Translations under genes and position numbers: made by a program | DNA from: Aquisphaera giovannonii | Lineage (GTDB): Bacteria; Planctomycetota; Planctomycetia; Isosphaerales; Isosphaeraceae | Length of the DNA: 64,000 nucleotides | NCBI RefSeq assembly: GCF_008087625.1 | Contig: NZ_CP042997.1 | Span: 9,362,001-9,426,000, forward strand | Direction: 5' to 3' | Notes under the pieces: generated by a model | What the model was told of the DNA's origin: nothing | What the model saw: the letters and a program-made list of their open reading frames with translations, nothing else | Databases searched by the model: none | Shown: positions 35,876-58,044 of the stretch, one piece after another | Position numbering within the stretch: the stretch's first letter is position 1 | How the letters are laid out: every line of letters starts with the position of its first letter

Positions 35876-37261
35876 TCAGCCCCGGCCCGGCCCGCCCCCG
35901 GGATCTGCGGCCGGCCGGGCGGCCTGCGTCCGTGCCCTGGCCTTCTCCTTCGCCTCGCGGTCGGCCTTCGCCCGGTCGAGGAGCAGGAGGATCCGCTCGC
36001 CGACGACCTCGGCCCACAACTCGGCGCCGGCGGCGGAGAAGTGGTCGTCGATCGGGTTGTTGTAGAGCGGGCTGCCCTCCACCGGGCGGCCGCCCCGGAG
36101 GCCGGCGACCTCGGCCGCGAGGTGGGCGCTGGCGAAGGCGTCGAACGGGTCGAGGATCGACGTGCTCTCGTCGTCGAGGATGTTGAGCAGCGAGCCGGGG
36201 TAGTGGCCCGAGAACCGCCGGGCCAGCAGGTGGGCCTCGTACGGGACGGGGACGATCAGGTGGGGCCAGCCGCGGGCCTTGCAGAACGCGATTGTCTTCT
36301 CCAGCCAGTACTTGCCCTCCCGCCAGTCGCCGACGCCCCGGTTGGCGACGGTCGGGATGTCGCCGCCGAAGTCGTTGGGGAAGACGCTGACGACCACGAA
36401 GTCCGGCGCGAAGCGGTCGGCGAAGGCGACCAGCGAGTGGTAGTACTGCTCGGCCGAATAGCCCATGACGCCGGTGTTGAGGATCGACGCCCGGATGCCG
36501 AGCCGGCCTTCCAGCCGCCGCCTCAGGCACTCCGGCGGCGTCTGCTCCTCGCCGAGGAACATGCCCTGCATGTAGGAGTCGCCCAGGACGATCCCGCGGA
36601 GCGGGGCGTCGCGATCCGGCTCCGGCCCCCGCAGTCCCCACGAGTTGGTCACCTGCCGCGAGCGCTCGAGCACGGTCGCCGAGGTCCCGCGGATGGCCTC
36701 GTCCAGGCCGGGGCCGTCGGGCACCAGGAAGAACATCGGGACGCCGCTGGGCAGCGGCAGCCCGCGGAGCCAGACGGACCGCGTCCGGGGCCGGAACCGG
36801 AACGACCGGCCCTCGTCGTCGTCCTCGAAGACCTTCGAGGAGAGCAGCATCGTCCAGTCGTAATTCCCCCACCGCAGCACCGCGTGCTCGGGATCCATGC
36901 CCGCGTACCGCAGGAGCCTCTGATGGGCGGAGCTTGCCTCGTCGTAGAAGCGGGCCACGCGCGGCCGCGTCTGCTCGATCCGGAGCTGCCGGAACCTCCG
37001 CCAGGACGCGTCGATGTCCGCCCGGGTGCTCGGCATCCCGACCGCCTGCCGGCCGGTCTGCACGACCGCCATCAGCGAGGACTCGGCGATGTACCGCCCC
37101 CAGGGCACCAGGCCCGCGACGAACGCGACGGCCAGCGCGGTCGCCAGGACGATCCCGCGCTTGAACCGGCGCTCCATCCGAAGCCGACGCTCCAGCGAGG
37201 GCAGCAGGCGTTGGCGCAGCCGCGGCCGCACCGGCATGAGCCGGGCGAATGGGCGTCTCAT
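35876..37261 (-). CDS. Membrane-anchored SGNH-hydrolase-like protein
   Basis: 461 residues. An N-terminal basic segment and one transmembrane helix at about 36-53 (G-I-V-L-A-T-A-L-A-V-A-F-V-A-G-L) put the bulk outside the cytoplasm. SGNH/GDSL blocks are visible: I-V-L-G-D-S-Y-M-Q-G (block I Ser), V-F-P-N-D-F-G-G-D (block III Asn region) and D-D-H-F-S-A-A-G (block V Asp-x-His). They indicate an intact catalytic triad, fitting an O-acetyl- or acyl-esterase acting on surface polysaccharide. A flexible Lys/Arg/Ala and Pro/Gly tail ends the protein. The acceptor is unknown. Confidence 0.8.
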   Translation of the reverse strand: MRRPFARLMPVRPRLRQRLLPSLERRLRMERRFKRGIVLATALAVAFVAGLVPWGRYIAESSLMAVVQTGRQAVGMPSTRADIDASWRRFRQLRIEQTRPRVARFYDEASSAHQRLLRYAGMDPEHAVLRWGNYDWTMLLSSKVFEDDDEGRSFRFRPRTRSVWLRGLPLPSGVPMFFLVPDGPGLDEAIRGTSATVLERSRQVTNSWGLRGPEPDRDAPLRGIVLGDSYMQGMFLGEEQTPPECLRRRLEGRLGIRASILNTGVMGYSAEQYYHSLVAFADRFAPDFVVVSVFPNDFGGDIPTVANRGVGDWREGKYWLEKTIAFCKARGWPHLIVPVPYEAHLLARRFSGHYPGSLLNILDDESTSILDPFDAFASAHLAAEVAGLRGGRPVEGSPLYNNPIDDHFSAAGAELWAEVVGERILLLLDRAKADREAKEKARARTQAARPAADPGGGPGRG

Positions 37262-38597: not shown

Positions 38598-39014
38598 ATG
38601 GCCACCGCCGCCCAGATCGCCGCCAATCGCCGCAACGCCCAGAAGTCGACCGGCCCCCGTACCAAGGCCGGCAAGGCGCGGAGCAGGCTGAACGGCCTGA
38701 AGCACGGGCTCTGCGTCCGGCATCCCGTGATGCCCGCCCCCTACATGCGCGTCGCCGTCGAGAAGTACCGCAAGGCCGCACTGGCCCGAGGGCTGGAGGT
38801 GCCCCGGGGCCTCACGGCCCTGCTGCAGATGGCCGCGGAGGTCCTGGGCGTCGCCCCCGCGGCCGCCGGCCCGGGGGGCCAGGACGCGACGCCGACGCCG
38901 GCGGGGGCGGGCGCCCTTTCGCGAGGAACGCGACCATCCGAGCCGGCCGAGGATACGGCGGATGGTCCGACGTGGGTTTACGTTGCGACGACGCACGGGC
39001 TCGAGCGGCCGTGA
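38598..39014 (+). CDS. Small hypothetical protein with N-R-R-N-A-Q-K-S-T-G-P motif
   Basis: 138 residues. The ATG at 38598 has GGAG 9 bp upstream. Residues 5-37 contain A-A-N-R-R-N-A-Q-K-S-T-G-P-R-T followed by K-A-R-S-R-L-N-G-L-K-H-G-L. This recurrent motif opens many small planctomycete and proteobacterial hypothetical proteins and suggests nucleic-acid binding by its basic, helical character (inference). The middle is helical; the C-terminal 50 residues are Ala/Gly/Pro-rich and probably disordered. The functional class is unknown. Confidence 0.65.
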   Translation: MATAAQIAANRRNAQKSTGPRTKAGKARSRLNGLKHGLCVRHPVMPAPYMRVAVEKYRKAALARGLEVPRGLTALLQMAAEVLGVAPAAAGPGGQDATPTPAGAGALSRGTRPSEPAEDTADGPTWVYVATTHGLERP

Positions 39015-39276
39015 CGAACAGAGCCAATTCCGCGGCCCCGCCCGCCCCCACGCCCGCGAGCGGCGGGGGGTCGGCGGGACGCCGGGCCGGGGGCGTCGCG
39101 AGGACGCCCGGTCCGGCCCGGAGGGGGTGCGGCCAGTCCCTTCCGGAGGGCGCGGGGGGCCTGTAGGATGAGGGCGATTGCACCGCAGGCGTGCTGCGGA
39201 CGTACGGCCCGATCGACGGCCGTCGGTCGTCCGCTCGGCGGGCCGGCCGGCCCCGCGTCCAGGAGACGTCGTCATC

Positions 39277-42200
39277 ATGGCAGGATCCCTCCCGCTCCGT
39301 CCGAGGCCGGCCGCGTCGCGGCTCGCCCCGTCCCTCGTCGTCGGCCTCGCCCTCGTGGGCCTGTGCCTCGTCCCGTCCGGCGGGCCGATCCGGGCCCAGG
39401 TCTCCGGGCCGGGGGGGCCGGCCGGCGCGATGTCGAAGATGGCCGGCCGGCGGCCGACCGCCGTGGACGAACGGATCAAGTCGCCCCGGGCCATGCAGGT
39501 CTTCCAGCGCGACGCCAACAACCGGGCCACGATCCCCATCGCGTTCGAGGACCCCGACGGCGGGGCGACCGTGGTCTCGGCGACCGTCCTGGGCGGCGGC
39601 ATGGGGGCGCCCGGGTTCAACAACGCCGCGGCCGGCGATCGGACCCGGTTCGAGGACGGCAAGCTCGTGGGCGTGCCGACGGGCGGGCCCTACACCATCC
39701 GGCTCCAGGTGAAGCGGGGGAACAACCAGGAATTCGCCACCGTCGGCCCGGTGTTCGTCGGCGACCTCTGGGTGCTCGCGGGCCAGTCGAACATGGAGGG
39801 CGTCGGCGACCTGGTCGACGTCACCCCGCCGCATGCGTCCGTCATGGCGCTCGGCATGGACGGCAAGTGGGCCCAGGCCGAGGAGCCGCTGCACTGGCTG
39901 GTGGACTCGCCCGACCCGGTCCACTCCGGCGACCCGGCCACGCGCGCCAATCGCTCGGCCGAGCAACACCGGACCCGGGCCAAGGGGGCGGGCCTCGGCC
40001 TCCCCTTCGCCGTCGCCATGGTGGAGGCGACCCGCGTGCCCGTCGGCCTGGTCGCCACCGCCCACGGCGGCACGAGCATGGCCCAGTGGGATCCCGCGAA
40101 GAAGGGCGAGGGGGGCAACAGCCTGTACGGCTCGTTCCTCCGCCAGGTCCAGCTCGCCGGCGGCAAGGTGAAGGGCGTGCTCTGGTACCAGGGCGAGAGC
40201 GACGCCAACCCCCAGGCCGCGAAGGTCTACCACAAGGTCTTCGCCGACTTCATCGCCGCCGTCCGGTCGGACCTGAACCAGCCGGACCTGCCCTTCTACT
40301 TCGTCCAGATCGGCCGGTTCATCATCCCCGGCTCGCCGGATCCGAAGGACTGGAACCTCGTCCAGGATGCCCAGCGGCGGCTCCCCGACCGCGTGCCCAA
40401 CACGGCGGTGATCTCGGTCGTCGACCTCGAGCTCGACGACCTGATCCACGTCGGCACCCAGGGCCTGAAGCGCGCCGGCCAGCGGCTGGCGAGGATCGCC
40501 CTCCGCGAGCAGTTCGGCCAGGTCGGCGCCACGACGCCCACGTTCGATCGCGTGGCGGCGGGCTCGCACAACACGCTGCTGGTCAAGTTCAAGGGCGTGA
40601 ACGTCCAGCCGAACGCCGCGATGAACCGACGCGGCATGGGCGGCATGATGGGCGGCCCCGCGGGCATGGGCGGCATGGGCATGGGCGGCATGGGCATGGG
40701 CGGCATGGGCATGGGCGGCGGTTCCAGCCCCGGCGAGGACGCCGGCGCGGGGCTGCGGCCGGAGCGGCACGTCGGCGGGTTCTCCATCCGCAAGGAGGAC
40801 GGCACGGCCATCCCCCTGATCTTCGAGGCGAAGGTCGGCAAGTCGAACGACTCCGTGGTCCTCAAGCTCACCGGCGCCATCCCGCCGCACTCGTTCCTCT
40901 GGTACGGCTACGGCCACGACCCGTACTGCAACCTGGTGGACGGCCTCGACATGGCGGTCCCCGTCTTCGGCCCGATCGGCCTGGATAACCTGGGCTCCGA
41001 GGCCGAGGCCGCCGCGGCCCCCGCCGCCTCGCCGACGCCCGCCCCCGCGCCGGTGGCGGCTGGCGCGCCGAAGCCCTCGTCCGCGGCCGCGCCCGTCGCC
41101 TCGGCGACGAAGCCCGCCGGGCAGCCGGGCGCGGCCTCGACGGCCGGGCCGATCAAGGTCCTGATCATCACCGGCGACAACTACCACGACTGGAAGGCGA
41201 CGACGGAGTACCTGAAGTCGAAGGTCCTCACGCCGCCGAACTTCGACGTGGACGTCACGGCCACGCCGGCGAAGGACCTGACGGAGTCCAACCTGGCGAA
41301 GTACGACGTCCTGCTCCTCAATTACATGAACACGAACAAGGGCGGGCCGGAGACCCAATGGTCGGACGCCAACAAGCAGGCCTTCCTGGACGCCGTCCGC
41401 GGCGGCAAGGGGCTGGTGAGCTACCACTTCGCCTCGGCCGCGTTCACGAAGCCGAACTGGGCGGAGTTCGAGAAGGCCATCGCCGGCGGCTGGCGGTCGC
41501 AGGGCTTCCACGGCCCGAAGCACGTCTTCACGGTGAAGAAGGCCGGCCCGAAGCACCCGATCTCCGAAGGCCTCCCGGCGGAGTTCGTCCACGCGATCGA
41601 CGAGCTCTACCAGAACTCGGTCATCACCCCCGGCAGCACCGTGCTCGCCACCGCGTACTCCGACCCCAAGAAGCCCCGGGGCACGGGCAAGGATGAGCCC
41701 GTGATCTGGGTGAACACGTACGGCAAGGGCCGGGTCTACGTCAACGCGCTCGGCCACGACGTCGAGGCCATGTCCGACCCGAACTTCGCCGCCTGGCTCC
41801 GCCGCGGCGTCGTCTGGGCGGCGACCGGCGAGGTCCCGCCCGGCCCGGCGCTCGGCGTCGGGGGCGGCCAGCAGGGGGCGGCTAAGGCCGAGCGGCGGAT
41901 CGCGCGGGCCGAGTACATCGACAAGATGAAAGGGGGCTGGATCGGCCAGATGGCGGGCGTCGCCGTCGGCGGGCCTACGGAGTTCCGCTACCAGGGCGAG
42001 ACCGTCCCGGCCGACAAGGTCCCGGCCTGGAAGCCGTCGATGATCAACCAGTACGACCAGGATGACCTCTACGTCGAGATGACCTTCCTGAGGACCCTGG
42101 AGCAGCACGGCCTGGGCGCGACGGCCCGGCAGGCGGGCATCGACTTCGCCAACAGCCGGTACCCGCTCTGGCACGCCAACAAGGCCGGCCGCGACCTGCT

Positions 42201-43077
42201 GAGGAAGGGGATCGCCCCGCCGGACTCCGGCCATCCCGCGCTGAATTCGCACGCCGACGACATCGACTACCAGATCGAGGCCGACTTCTCCGGCCTGATC
42301 GCCCCGGGCCTCCCCAACACGGCGATCGCGCTGGGCGAGACCTTCGGCCGGCTCATGAACGCCGGCGACGGCCTCTACGGCGGCCAGTTCATCGGGGCCA
42401 TGTACGCCGAGGCGTTCTTCGAGGCGGATCCCGAGGCGATCGTCCGGGCGGGCCTCAAGGCCATCCCGCAAGGATCCCAGTACGCCGAGGCCATCCGGGA
42501 CGTCCTCGCCTGGTACAAGGAAAGCCCGGACAACTGGGAGGCGACCTGGCGGAAGGTGGACGCGAAGTATCAGAAGAATCGCGACTACCGGCGCTTCTCG
42601 TGCAGCAAGGACGAGAAGGAGCCGTACAAGTTCAACATCGACGCCAAGCTCAACGGGGCCTACCTCGTGATGGGGATCCTCTACGGCAAGGGGGACCCGG
42701 ACCGGACGATCGTCGTGGCGACGCGGTGCGGCCAGGACTCGGACTGCAACCCCTCGAGCGCCGCGGGCGTCGTATTCACGACGATCGGCTACTCGAAGCT
42801 GCCGAGGAAGTACGTCGAGGGCCTGGACGCGAACACCAAGTTCAACTCCACGCCCTACACGTTCTCCCGGCTGATCGCCGTCTGCGAGGACCTGGCCGAC
42901 CAGGCCGTGAAGGCGGCCGGCGGCCGGATCGAGCGGAGCGCCGACGGGTCCCAGATGTACGTCATCCCCGTGGAGGCCCCGCGGCCGAGCCCGCTCGCCT
43001 CGTGCTGGGAGCCGGGCCCGAAGGCGAACAGCACCTTCAGCGCCCGGGAGAAGGGGCAGATCGTCGAGAAGCCCTGA
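39277..43077 (+). CDS. Secreted trimodular enzyme: sialate O-acetylesterase (SASA) - ThuA - ADP-ribosylglycohydrolase fusion
   Basis: 1266 residues. The start at 39277 has AGGAGA upstream and creates a signal peptide (L-A-P-S-L-V-V-G-L-A-L-V-G-L-C-L). Module 1 (about 60-560) is an SGNH-type sialate O-acetylesterase: A-G-Q-S-N-M-E-G-V near 168, G-G-T-S-M-A-Q-W-D, W-Y-Q-G-E-S-D-A. A Met/Gly repeat near 452-485 interrupts it. An Ala/Pro linker (about 575-623) leads to module 2, a ThuA-like glutamine-amidotransferase-fold domain (about 625-856; I-I-T-G-D-N-Y-H-D-W-K). Module 3 (about 868-1230) is an ADP-ribosylglycohydrolase-like domain with metal-site acidic motifs (Y-D-Q-D-D-L-Y-V-E at its start, T-R-C-G-Q-D-S-D-C-N-P at the end). 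All three recur in polysaccharide-utilising planctomycetes, so a glycan substrate is likelier than ADP-ribosylated protein. Confidence 0.9.
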   Translation: MAGSLPLRPRPAASRLAPSLVVGLALVGLCLVPSGGPIRAQVSGPGGPAGAMSKMAGRRPTAVDERIKSPRAMQVFQRDANNRATIPIAFEDPDGGATVVSATVLGGGMGAPGFNNAAAGDRTRFEDGKLVGVPTGGPYTIRLQVKRGNNQEFATVGPVFVGDLWVLAGQSNMEGVGDLVDVTPPHASVMALGMDGKWAQAEEPLHWLVDSPDPVHSGDPATRANRSAEQHRTRAKGAGLGLPFAVAMVEATRVPVGLVATAHGGTSMAQWDPAKKGEGGNSLYGSFLRQVQLAGGKVKGVLWYQGESDANPQAAKVYHKVFADFIAAVRSDLNQPDLPFYFVQIGRFIIPGSPDPKDWNLVQDAQRRLPDRVPNTAVISVVDLELDDLIHVGTQGLKRAGQRLARIALREQFGQVGATTPTFDRVAAGSHNTLLVKFKGVNVQPNAAMNRRGMGGMMGGPAGMGGMGMGGMGMGGMGMGGGSSPGEDAGAGLRPERHVGGFSIRKEDGTAIPLIFEAKVGKSNDSVVLKLTGAIPPHSFLWYGYGHDPYCNLVDGLDMAVPVFGPIGLDNLGSEAEAAAAPAASPTPAPAPVAAGAPKPSSAAAPVASATKPAGQPGAASTAGPIKVLIITGDNYHDWKATTEYLKSKVLTPPNFDVDVTATPAKDLTESNLAKYDVLLLNYMNTNKGGPETQWSDANKQAFLDAVRGGKGLVSYHFASAAFTKPNWAEFEKAIAGGWRSQGFHGPKHVFTVKKAGPKHPISEGLPAEFVHAIDELYQNSVITPGSTVLATAYSDPKKPRGTGKDEPVIWVNTYGKGRVYVNALGHDVEAMSDPNFAAWLRRGVVWAATGEVPPGPALGVGGGQQGAAKAERRIARAEYIDKMKGGWIGQMAGVAVGGPTEFRYQGETVPADKVPAWKPSMINQYDQDDLYVEMTFLRTLEQHGLGATARQAGIDFANSRYPLWHANKAGRDLLRKGIAPPDSGHPALNSHADDIDYQIEADFSGLIAPGLPNTAIALGETFGRLMNAGDGLYGGQFIGAMYAEAFFEADPEAIVRAGLKAIPQGSQYAEAIRDVLAWYKESPDNWEATWRKVDAKYQKNRDYRRFSCSKDEKEPYKFNIDAKLNGAYLVMGILYGKGDPDRTIVVATRCGQDSDCNPSSAAGVVFTTIGYSKLPRKYVEGLDANTKFNSTPYTFSRLIAVCEDLADQAVKAAGGRIERSADGSQMYVIPVEAPRPSPLASCWEPGPKANSTFSAREKGQIVEKP
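40666..40719 (+). repeat. Tandem 15-bp repeat encoding Met/Gly pentads
   Basis: Three identical 15-bp units (ATGGGCGGCATGGGC) and a partial fourth encode M-G-G-M-G repeats inside the esterase module. Repeat-number change stays in frame. Confidence 0.9.
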
Positions 43078-43113
43078 TGGAGTGATCTCATCCCGGAGGA
43101 CGCCGCCCCCGCC

Positions 43114-43461
43114 ATGCCACCCGCCGGCCAGCGAGACTACAGCAAGGTCCGACTCACGCGGCATGCGATGGAGCGGTTCGTCGAGCGGTTCGAGGCCGAG
43201 CCCGGCTCGGCCGAGCCGCTCCTCCGCGAGGCCCTGGCGCGGACCCGCCGCCTGGGCCGCAACCCCGAGAACGGCGCGATCGCCGTGCTGGCGCTGCACG
43301 CCGGCCGCGTCCTGGTGGCCGTCCTCCAGGACGACGCCTGCCTGACCGTCCTGACCTGGAACCAGTTCGAGCCCCGCCTCCAGGAGTTCGGCCGCCCCCG
43401 CATGCCCCGCAAGTGGGGCCGGATGCTCGGCCGCCTGGAGAAGGAAGCCGACGAAGAGTAA
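43114..43461 (+). CDS. Small hypothetical protein
   Basis: 115 residues starting 36 bp after the trimodular enzyme gene, with GGAGGA about 12 bp upstream. The N-terminal L-T-R-H-A-M-E-R-F-V-E-R-F recalls the T-R-H-A-x-x-R-x-x-E-R start of DUF4258-type small proteins. The next part, A-V-L-A-L-H-A-G-R-V-L-V-A-V-L, looks like the following beta-hairpin, so a distant relation is possible but unproven. It ends 3 bp before palindrome B2, which may serve as its terminator. Confidence 0.6.
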   Translation: MPPAGQRDYSKVRLTRHAMERFVERFEAEPGSAEPLLREALARTRRLGRNPENGAIAVLALHAGRVLVAVLQDDACLTVLTWNQFEPRLQEFGRPRMPRKWGRMLGRLEKEADEE

Positions 43462-43464
43462 GCA

Positions 43465-43611
43465 TCTTTTGTAGGGTGCGTCTCGACGCACCGGACCGGC
43501 TCGGCATCGCGAAGGGCCCGGCCGCCTCACACGGCGGGGCGCGTCACCCGTATCGCCGCATCGTCCTCATGACGCGGCGGTCCGGTGCGTCGAGACGCAC
43601 CCTACAAAAGA
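43465..43611. repeat. Palindromic element, family B copy 2 (34-bp perfect arms)
   Basis: Arms 43465-43498 and 43578-43611 are exact reverse complements with a 79-bp loop homologous to that of copy 1 at 28616-28755. It lies between convergent genes, 3 bp past the plus-strand stop. Confidence 0.95.

Positions 43612-57791: not shown

Positions 57792-58044
<253 letters not shown>

Follow-up and report, generated by a model that had tools for sequence, protein, structure and literature searches.

What might an ADP-ribosylglycohydrolase (RGH) domain do if it is exported in one chain with two further enzyme domains? The question is raised by a gene in a window of 64,000 nucleotides from Aquisphaera giovannonii (contig NZ_CP042997.1, positions 9,362,001 to 9,426,000 of the forward strand), which encodes a SASA esterase, a ThuA domain and an RGH domain, here called module 3. 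From its domain composition, its active site and the genomic partners of its relatives, we consider it somewhat probable that the product is an exported three-enzyme protein in which module 3 is a ribosyl hydrolase of the ribose-scavenging type.

Architecture of the fusion protein

The gene and its parts were delimited as follows.
39277-43077 (+): three-domain fusion gene, 1266 amino acids; from the ATG at 39277 to the stop codon that ends at 43077; the start in A. insulae is alike (MAGF...RPRP)
39277-39396 (+): putative signal peptide, residues ~1-40; recognised by eye from a basic n-region, a hydrophobic h-region and an IRA/Q junction
39760-40503 (+): SASA esterase core, PF03629, residues 162-409, with Ser171 in GQSNME; Pfam match
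40615-40746 (+): Met/Gly low-complexity loop, residues ~447-490, in the C-terminal beta-domain of the esterase
40747-41001 (+): C-terminal beta part of the esterase, residues 491-575; from alignment with two other SASA esterases
41002-41142 (+): linker 1, Ala/Pro, residues 576-622; from the sequence
41155-41820 (+): ThuA domain, PF06283, residues 627-848; from Pfam and the solved relative 4e5v (E 3e-30)
41836-41901 (+): linker 2, residues 854-875, at the position of the signal peptide of stand-alone RGH relatives
41902-43074 (+): module 3, exported-type RGH, residues 876-1266; PF03747 at 41932-42807

An earlier note on this DNA had described one signal-bearing chain with SASA, ThuA and RGH domains, and this description held, as the open reading frame is real and the Pfam matches lie far above their cut-offs. 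The SASA match reached 181.8 bits (E 2e-53), far above the gathering score, and the ThuA match 128.3 bits against a cut-off of 33.4 (E 6e-37) over the whole profile length. For ADP_ribosyl_GH (PF03747), the match covered residues 886-1177 with 95 bits against a cut-off of 26.2 (E 9e-27); the NCBIfam profiles gave only noise-level matches. In alignment with other SASA esterases, Ser171 of the GQSNME nucleophile motif was conserved. The N-terminus, read by eye, is signal-like, with RPRPAASR followed by a hydrophobic run up to the IRA/Q junction, and no signal peptide precedes module 3 within the fusion, whose export would rely on the N-terminal one. Both linkers are Ala/Pro- or Gly-rich. Large antisense open reading frames over the gene (e.g. 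38812-43530) were rejected as GC-rich mirror frames, the homologues belonging to the + frame.

An origin of the fusion in faulty sequencing or assembly, or a degenerate passenger domain within it, is extremely improbable, and no support for either was found. The gene lies on a 10.4-Mb contig of a 3-contig planctomycete genome of 10.5 Mb, and the independent assembly of A. insulae carries the identical domain fusion (84% identity, a frame of 1284 codons), so the fusion is neither chance nor assembly error and the artefact that the earlier note had allowed for can be set aside. Between the two species, the ratio of nonsynonymous to synonymous substitution rates (dN/dS) was 0.25 for SASA, 0.22 for ThuA and 0.24 for RGH, compared with 0.43 for both linkers. 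As these values are similar and low over all three domains (0.22-0.26), purifying selection maintains all of them while fused; the catalytic residues of module 3 are likewise intact. Among the relatives compared, the three-domain architecture is so far known from Aquisphaera alone.

Fold, active site and clade of module 3

When module 3 alone was used as the query, phmmer found no related solved structure, and a profile of 57 relatives reached solved structures weakly. The structure prediction that the earlier note had proposed (AlphaFold2; mean predicted local distance difference test score 94.6) gave an ARH/DraG fold with the catalytic Glu and the metal Asp residues kept. The model superposed on ARH3 (6g1p) with Z 29.5 and a root-mean-square deviation of 2.8 over 297 aligned residues at 13% identity, and on ARH3/DraG-type structures with Z 25-29 at 12-15% identity, so that module 3 is predicted to have the all-helical ARH/DraG fold. 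The residues of the putative active site were located as follows.
41980-41982 (+): Glu902 in GGPTEF, putative catalytic residue; the Glu of MJ1187 aligns with it
42058-42066 (+): putative metal motif 1, Gln928-Asp929-Asp930; Thr/Ser-Asp-Asp in the classic family
42736-42750 (+): putative metal motif 2, Asp1154-Ser-Asp1156-Cys1157-Asn1158; Asp-x-Asp-Thr/Ser in the classic family

All 57 relatives keep Glu40, Asp67, Asp68, Asp292 and Asp294 (module numbering; positions in the whole chain are higher by 862), and the Glu and the four Asp residues align with counterparts in MJ1187 and other solved relatives. In ARH3 and DraG, the aligned residues serve in catalysis and metal binding, and the counterpart of Glu902 in ARH3 is presumably Glu41. 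Module 3 thus shares with ARH3, DraG and ARH1 the predicted fold, the catalytic Glu and the paired Asp metal ligands. It differs from them in its low identity, in its position in a separate clade and in its metal site, where QDDL and DSDCN stand in place of the classic T/S-DD-T and G-x-D-x-D-T/S, so that one Thr/Ser is changed to Gln and another to Cys. These three classic ADP-ribosylhydrolases are also not known to be exported.

In a tree of 48 rows, module 3 fell within a clade of 39 rows, here called DCN for its motif GxDxDCN (from which a few rows deviate), apart from 9 classic rows that include three other RGH paralogues of the window's own genome. The split had support of 100/99 and was present in all bootstraps; within the classic group the inner order is unsure because several branches there are long. 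From the motifs and from this split, module 3 lies outside the classic DraG/ARH clade; the earlier note had named a placement inside that clade, with cytoplasmic relatives, as a refutation of its proposal.

These results bear on the suggestion that an exported RGH strips ADP-ribose from extracellular proteins or nucleic acids as a defence against ADP-ribosylating toxins. The resemblance of the fold to ARH3 and DraG, the existence of immunity-type ARH proteins (6dre) and the retention of the catalytic residues are in its favour. However, no toxin or immunity context was seen among the loci examined, and the clade stands apart from its classic counterpart and is repeatedly linked to sugar uptake; we regard this explanation as very improbable.

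Genomic partners and candidate substrates

About 85,000 genomes were scanned for relatives of module 3, of which more than 570 were found; the loci analysed are those of the best 80, which are not a random sample. These relatives come from Planctomycetota, Verrucomicrobiota, Hydrogenedentota, KSB1, Bacteroidota, Lentisphaerae and others. By a simple rule, a signal peptide was detected in 76 of 85 homologues, and 4 more were signal-like by eye, which suggests on this heuristic test that DCN-clade RGH proteins are mostly exported.

The recurrent partners of the module-3 orthologues, confirmed by Pfam, were a PfkB ribokinase and a GRP sugar transporter, in some loci with a nucleoside hydrolase or RbsA/RbsB-like ABC genes. 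A PfkB kinase, GRP transporter or nucleoside hydrolase was encountered within ~8 kb at 14 of the 87 module-3 loci, a count in which a few contigs were entered twice, compared with 0 of 18 control ThuA loci, a small set of one family. Two planctomycete proteins join a nucleoside hydrolase (IU_nuc_hydro) directly to an RGH that is 64-68% identical to module 3, in metagenome-assembled genomes of Sedimentisphaerales and Phycisphaerales (L086:6915-9602 and L064:1-2184); the former has a signal-like N-terminus and the latter begins at a contig end. In the tree, ribokinase-linked and nucleoside-hydrolase-linked rows were interleaved around module 3. Annotated plasmid loci of P. distasonis, Spirosoma and Flammeovirga contained rbsK and a GRP transporter, with a nucleoside hydrolase too in P. 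distasonis, and alphaproteobacterial members of the clade adjoin sugar ABC transporters, in Agrobacterium also a ribokinase.

The fullest Bacteroidales loci have the order PfkB-SusC-RGH-RGH-RGH-GRP. Ribose-scavenging rus operons in Bacteroides were reportedly described by Glowacki and colleagues in 2020, and the exported RGH of the B. thetaiotaomicron rus operon is, we take it, RusGH. The rus polysaccharide utilisation locus and its transporter RusT have been linked to ribose scavenging in B. thetaiotaomicron (PMC12596196). By analogy, the SusC/ribokinase operons of the clade appear to resemble rus loci; the comparison was made with the RGH of PfkB/GRP/SusC operons. These rus-type RGH proteins belong to the DCN clade, share with module 3 a GxDSDCNP motif, are exported on the heuristic test and have ribokinase, GRP transporter, nucleoside hydrolase and SusC as genomic partners. 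Unlike module 3, to which they are ~40-42% identical, they are unfused to SASA or ThuA, and the window gene sits in no rus operon. In four Bacteroidales loci (L213, L214, L215 and L217), three tandem RGH genes lie downstream of SusC, one copy being distant (~30-34%).

The window's own genome has a ribokinase above the cut-off elsewhere than the fusion gene; its 132-kb contig encodes a signal-bearing nucleoside hydrolase (L184:6681-7694) that is 61% identical to the enzyme of the ribose-type operon L126. No close match to this hydrolase was found in 58 related genomes (next best 39%); among 59 relatives only the window's genome has the enzyme, and there was no general pattern of co-occurrence with RGH.

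Ribosides and ribose scavenging are proposed as the setting because the partners of the clade are ribokinase, GRP transporter, RbsA/RbsB-like genes and nucleoside hydrolase, the last also in the two fusions. We infer the export route, the substrate, the cooperation of the three domains, the role of the ThuA domain and the reason for the fusion as follows. Module 3, a member of the exported DCN clade that would hydrolyse ribosyl bonds with the help of metal, would most likely split ribose (or ADP-ribose) from an aglycone outside the cytoplasm, freeing ribose or a ribosyl unit from ribosides; the freed ribose would be imported and then phosphorylated by ribokinase. The SASA domain would probably strip O-acetyl groups from this compound or from another sugar compound that accompanies it, and the ThuA-like domain would probably process a sugar intermediate. 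An RGH of the ribose-scavenging type may have become fused to an older SASA-ThuA unit. Operons and nucleoside hydrolase fusions link this widespread group of exported RGH proteins to ribose scavenging over several phyla.

Several observations weigh against a ribosyl hydrolase. No ribokinase, transporter or nucleoside hydrolase lies beside the fusion gene or beside the related gene pair of Paludisphaera described below, and the majority of the 87 loci are without a ribose-type neighbour. The data offer no reason for an acetylesterase and a ThuA domain to act on a riboside, and the changes from Thr to Gln and from Thr to Cys at the metal site could alter the chemistry. Two kinds of locus, moreover, point to other substrates. 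A Saprospiraceae locus (L118, 1-14468) combines two RGH genes and two SASA esterases with a BNR (sialidase-like) protein; it also encodes several similar secreted proteins, of which the one tested gave no Pfam match. Four loci of Sedimentisphaerales-type metagenome-assembled genomes (L070, L073, L077 and L078) share a conserved cassette with, in this order, ThuA, a sugar isomerase-like TIM barrel, a 3keto-disac_hyd-ThuA fusion and RGH.

The Saprospiraceae locus would fit a module 3 that is a glycosidase of unassigned kind on an O-acetylated oligosaccharide, SASA deacetylating the substrate before the RGH cuts the glycosidic bond. This explanation also draws on the fusion of the RGH to a carbohydrate esterase, on a GH5 gene downstream in L119 and on a C-terminal extension of ~130 amino acids in many stand-alone relatives that might bind sugar. 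Yet the clade's recurring partners are ribokinase, GRP transporter and nucleoside hydrolase, not glycan-degrading enzymes, and nucleoside hydrolase-RGH fusions exist, so that we judge it unlikely. An exported RGH in a family accompanied by sugar-metabolism genes, as argued in the earlier note, was borne out, but its pointer to an oligo- or polysaccharide was not, the partners being ribose-type; an undescribed glycan glycosidase is possible but less likely, and the weight of evidence favours a ribosyl hydrolase. With a probability similar to that of the oligosaccharide glycosidase, and thus doubtfully, the polypeptide might deacetylate and then cleave an acetylated ribosyl or furanosyl compound through the Gln/Cys-modified RGH site, whose glycosidase specificity would be undescribed, and ThuA would process the product.

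The four Sedimentisphaerales-type loci, together with GFO/IDH/MocA neighbours in 8 module-3 loci, suggest a 3-keto-sugar pathway in which ThuA and partners process oxidised sugars and the RGH hydrolyses a keto-glycoside. However, no 3-keto-disaccharide hydrolase or dehydrogenase gene was found beside the fusion gene or within the series of Isosphaeraceae loci, and ThuA adjacency may be weak evidence because ThuA genes are common in planctomycetes. A role in such a pathway appears improbable, more so than the glycosidase on an oligosaccharide. Among the papers searched, none joined RGH with ThuA in a relevant way and none joined RGH with polysaccharide utilisation loci.

Fusion states in Isosphaeraceae and minor features

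Among the sampled Isosphaeraceae genomes, ThuA is a lone gene in six (L172-L177); six others (L166-L171) have a separate SASA gene beside it, and in a further six (L160-L165) the two are fused. In the Paludisphaera group, three genomes of one sister genus including Paludisphaera soli (L012, L013 and L014), the SASA-ThuA gene is followed just downstream by a separate RGH gene. This pair has the same domains in the same order as the Aquisphaera fusion, at 67-76% identity, and differs in that its RGH has its own signal peptide; in Aquisphaera all three domains are fused, and a 22-residue linker takes the place of that signal peptide. From these sequences, the fusion appears to have arisen stepwise from neighbouring genes, ThuA being joined by SASA and then by RGH, an order read from the states in relatives and not from a reconciled species tree. 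The series is a clear natural record of the passage from an operon to a multi-domain enzyme, with every step still found in living relatives.

The esterase and ThuA domains were further compared with solved structures. The carbohydrate esterase FI8 (9h4u) and the sialate O-acetylesterases 7kmm and 9ega share with the esterase domain the SASA core, GQSNME and the C-terminal beta-domain, and differ from the fusion in being without ThuA, RGH or the Met/Gly loop. The ThuA-like 4e5v matches the ThuA domain over nearly its full length; it is stand-alone, and the function of both is unproven.

In the Met/Gly loop, a tandem repeat of a 15-nt unit (x 3.9) was detected at 40662-40719 by Tandem Repeats Finder. 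The loop is bounded by VKFKGVN and GLRPE; the corresponding loop of other SASA esterases is short in the alignment. As it varies in length and sequence among relatives and is absent from L165 and L014, the repeat is best read, on this comparison, as a fast-changing surface loop and not as a functional signature. The earlier statement that it interrupts the esterase domain applies to the C-terminal beta part and not to the Pfam SASA match, outside which the repeat lies.

Directly downstream of the fusion gene lies a further small frame.
43114-43461 (+): small open reading frame, 115 amino acids, of a family found directly downstream of ThuA, SASA-ThuA or fusion genes

It had no Pfam match, and its family is conserved in 15 Isosphaeraceae loci, the window included. 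A GDSL-lipase-like protein with an N-terminal hydrophobic segment is encoded at 35876-37261 (-), and in L013 a relative of it directly precedes the SASA-ThuA gene on the upstream side. An AG dinucleotide repeat of 31 units (79% matches) was noted in the window at 57838-57900.

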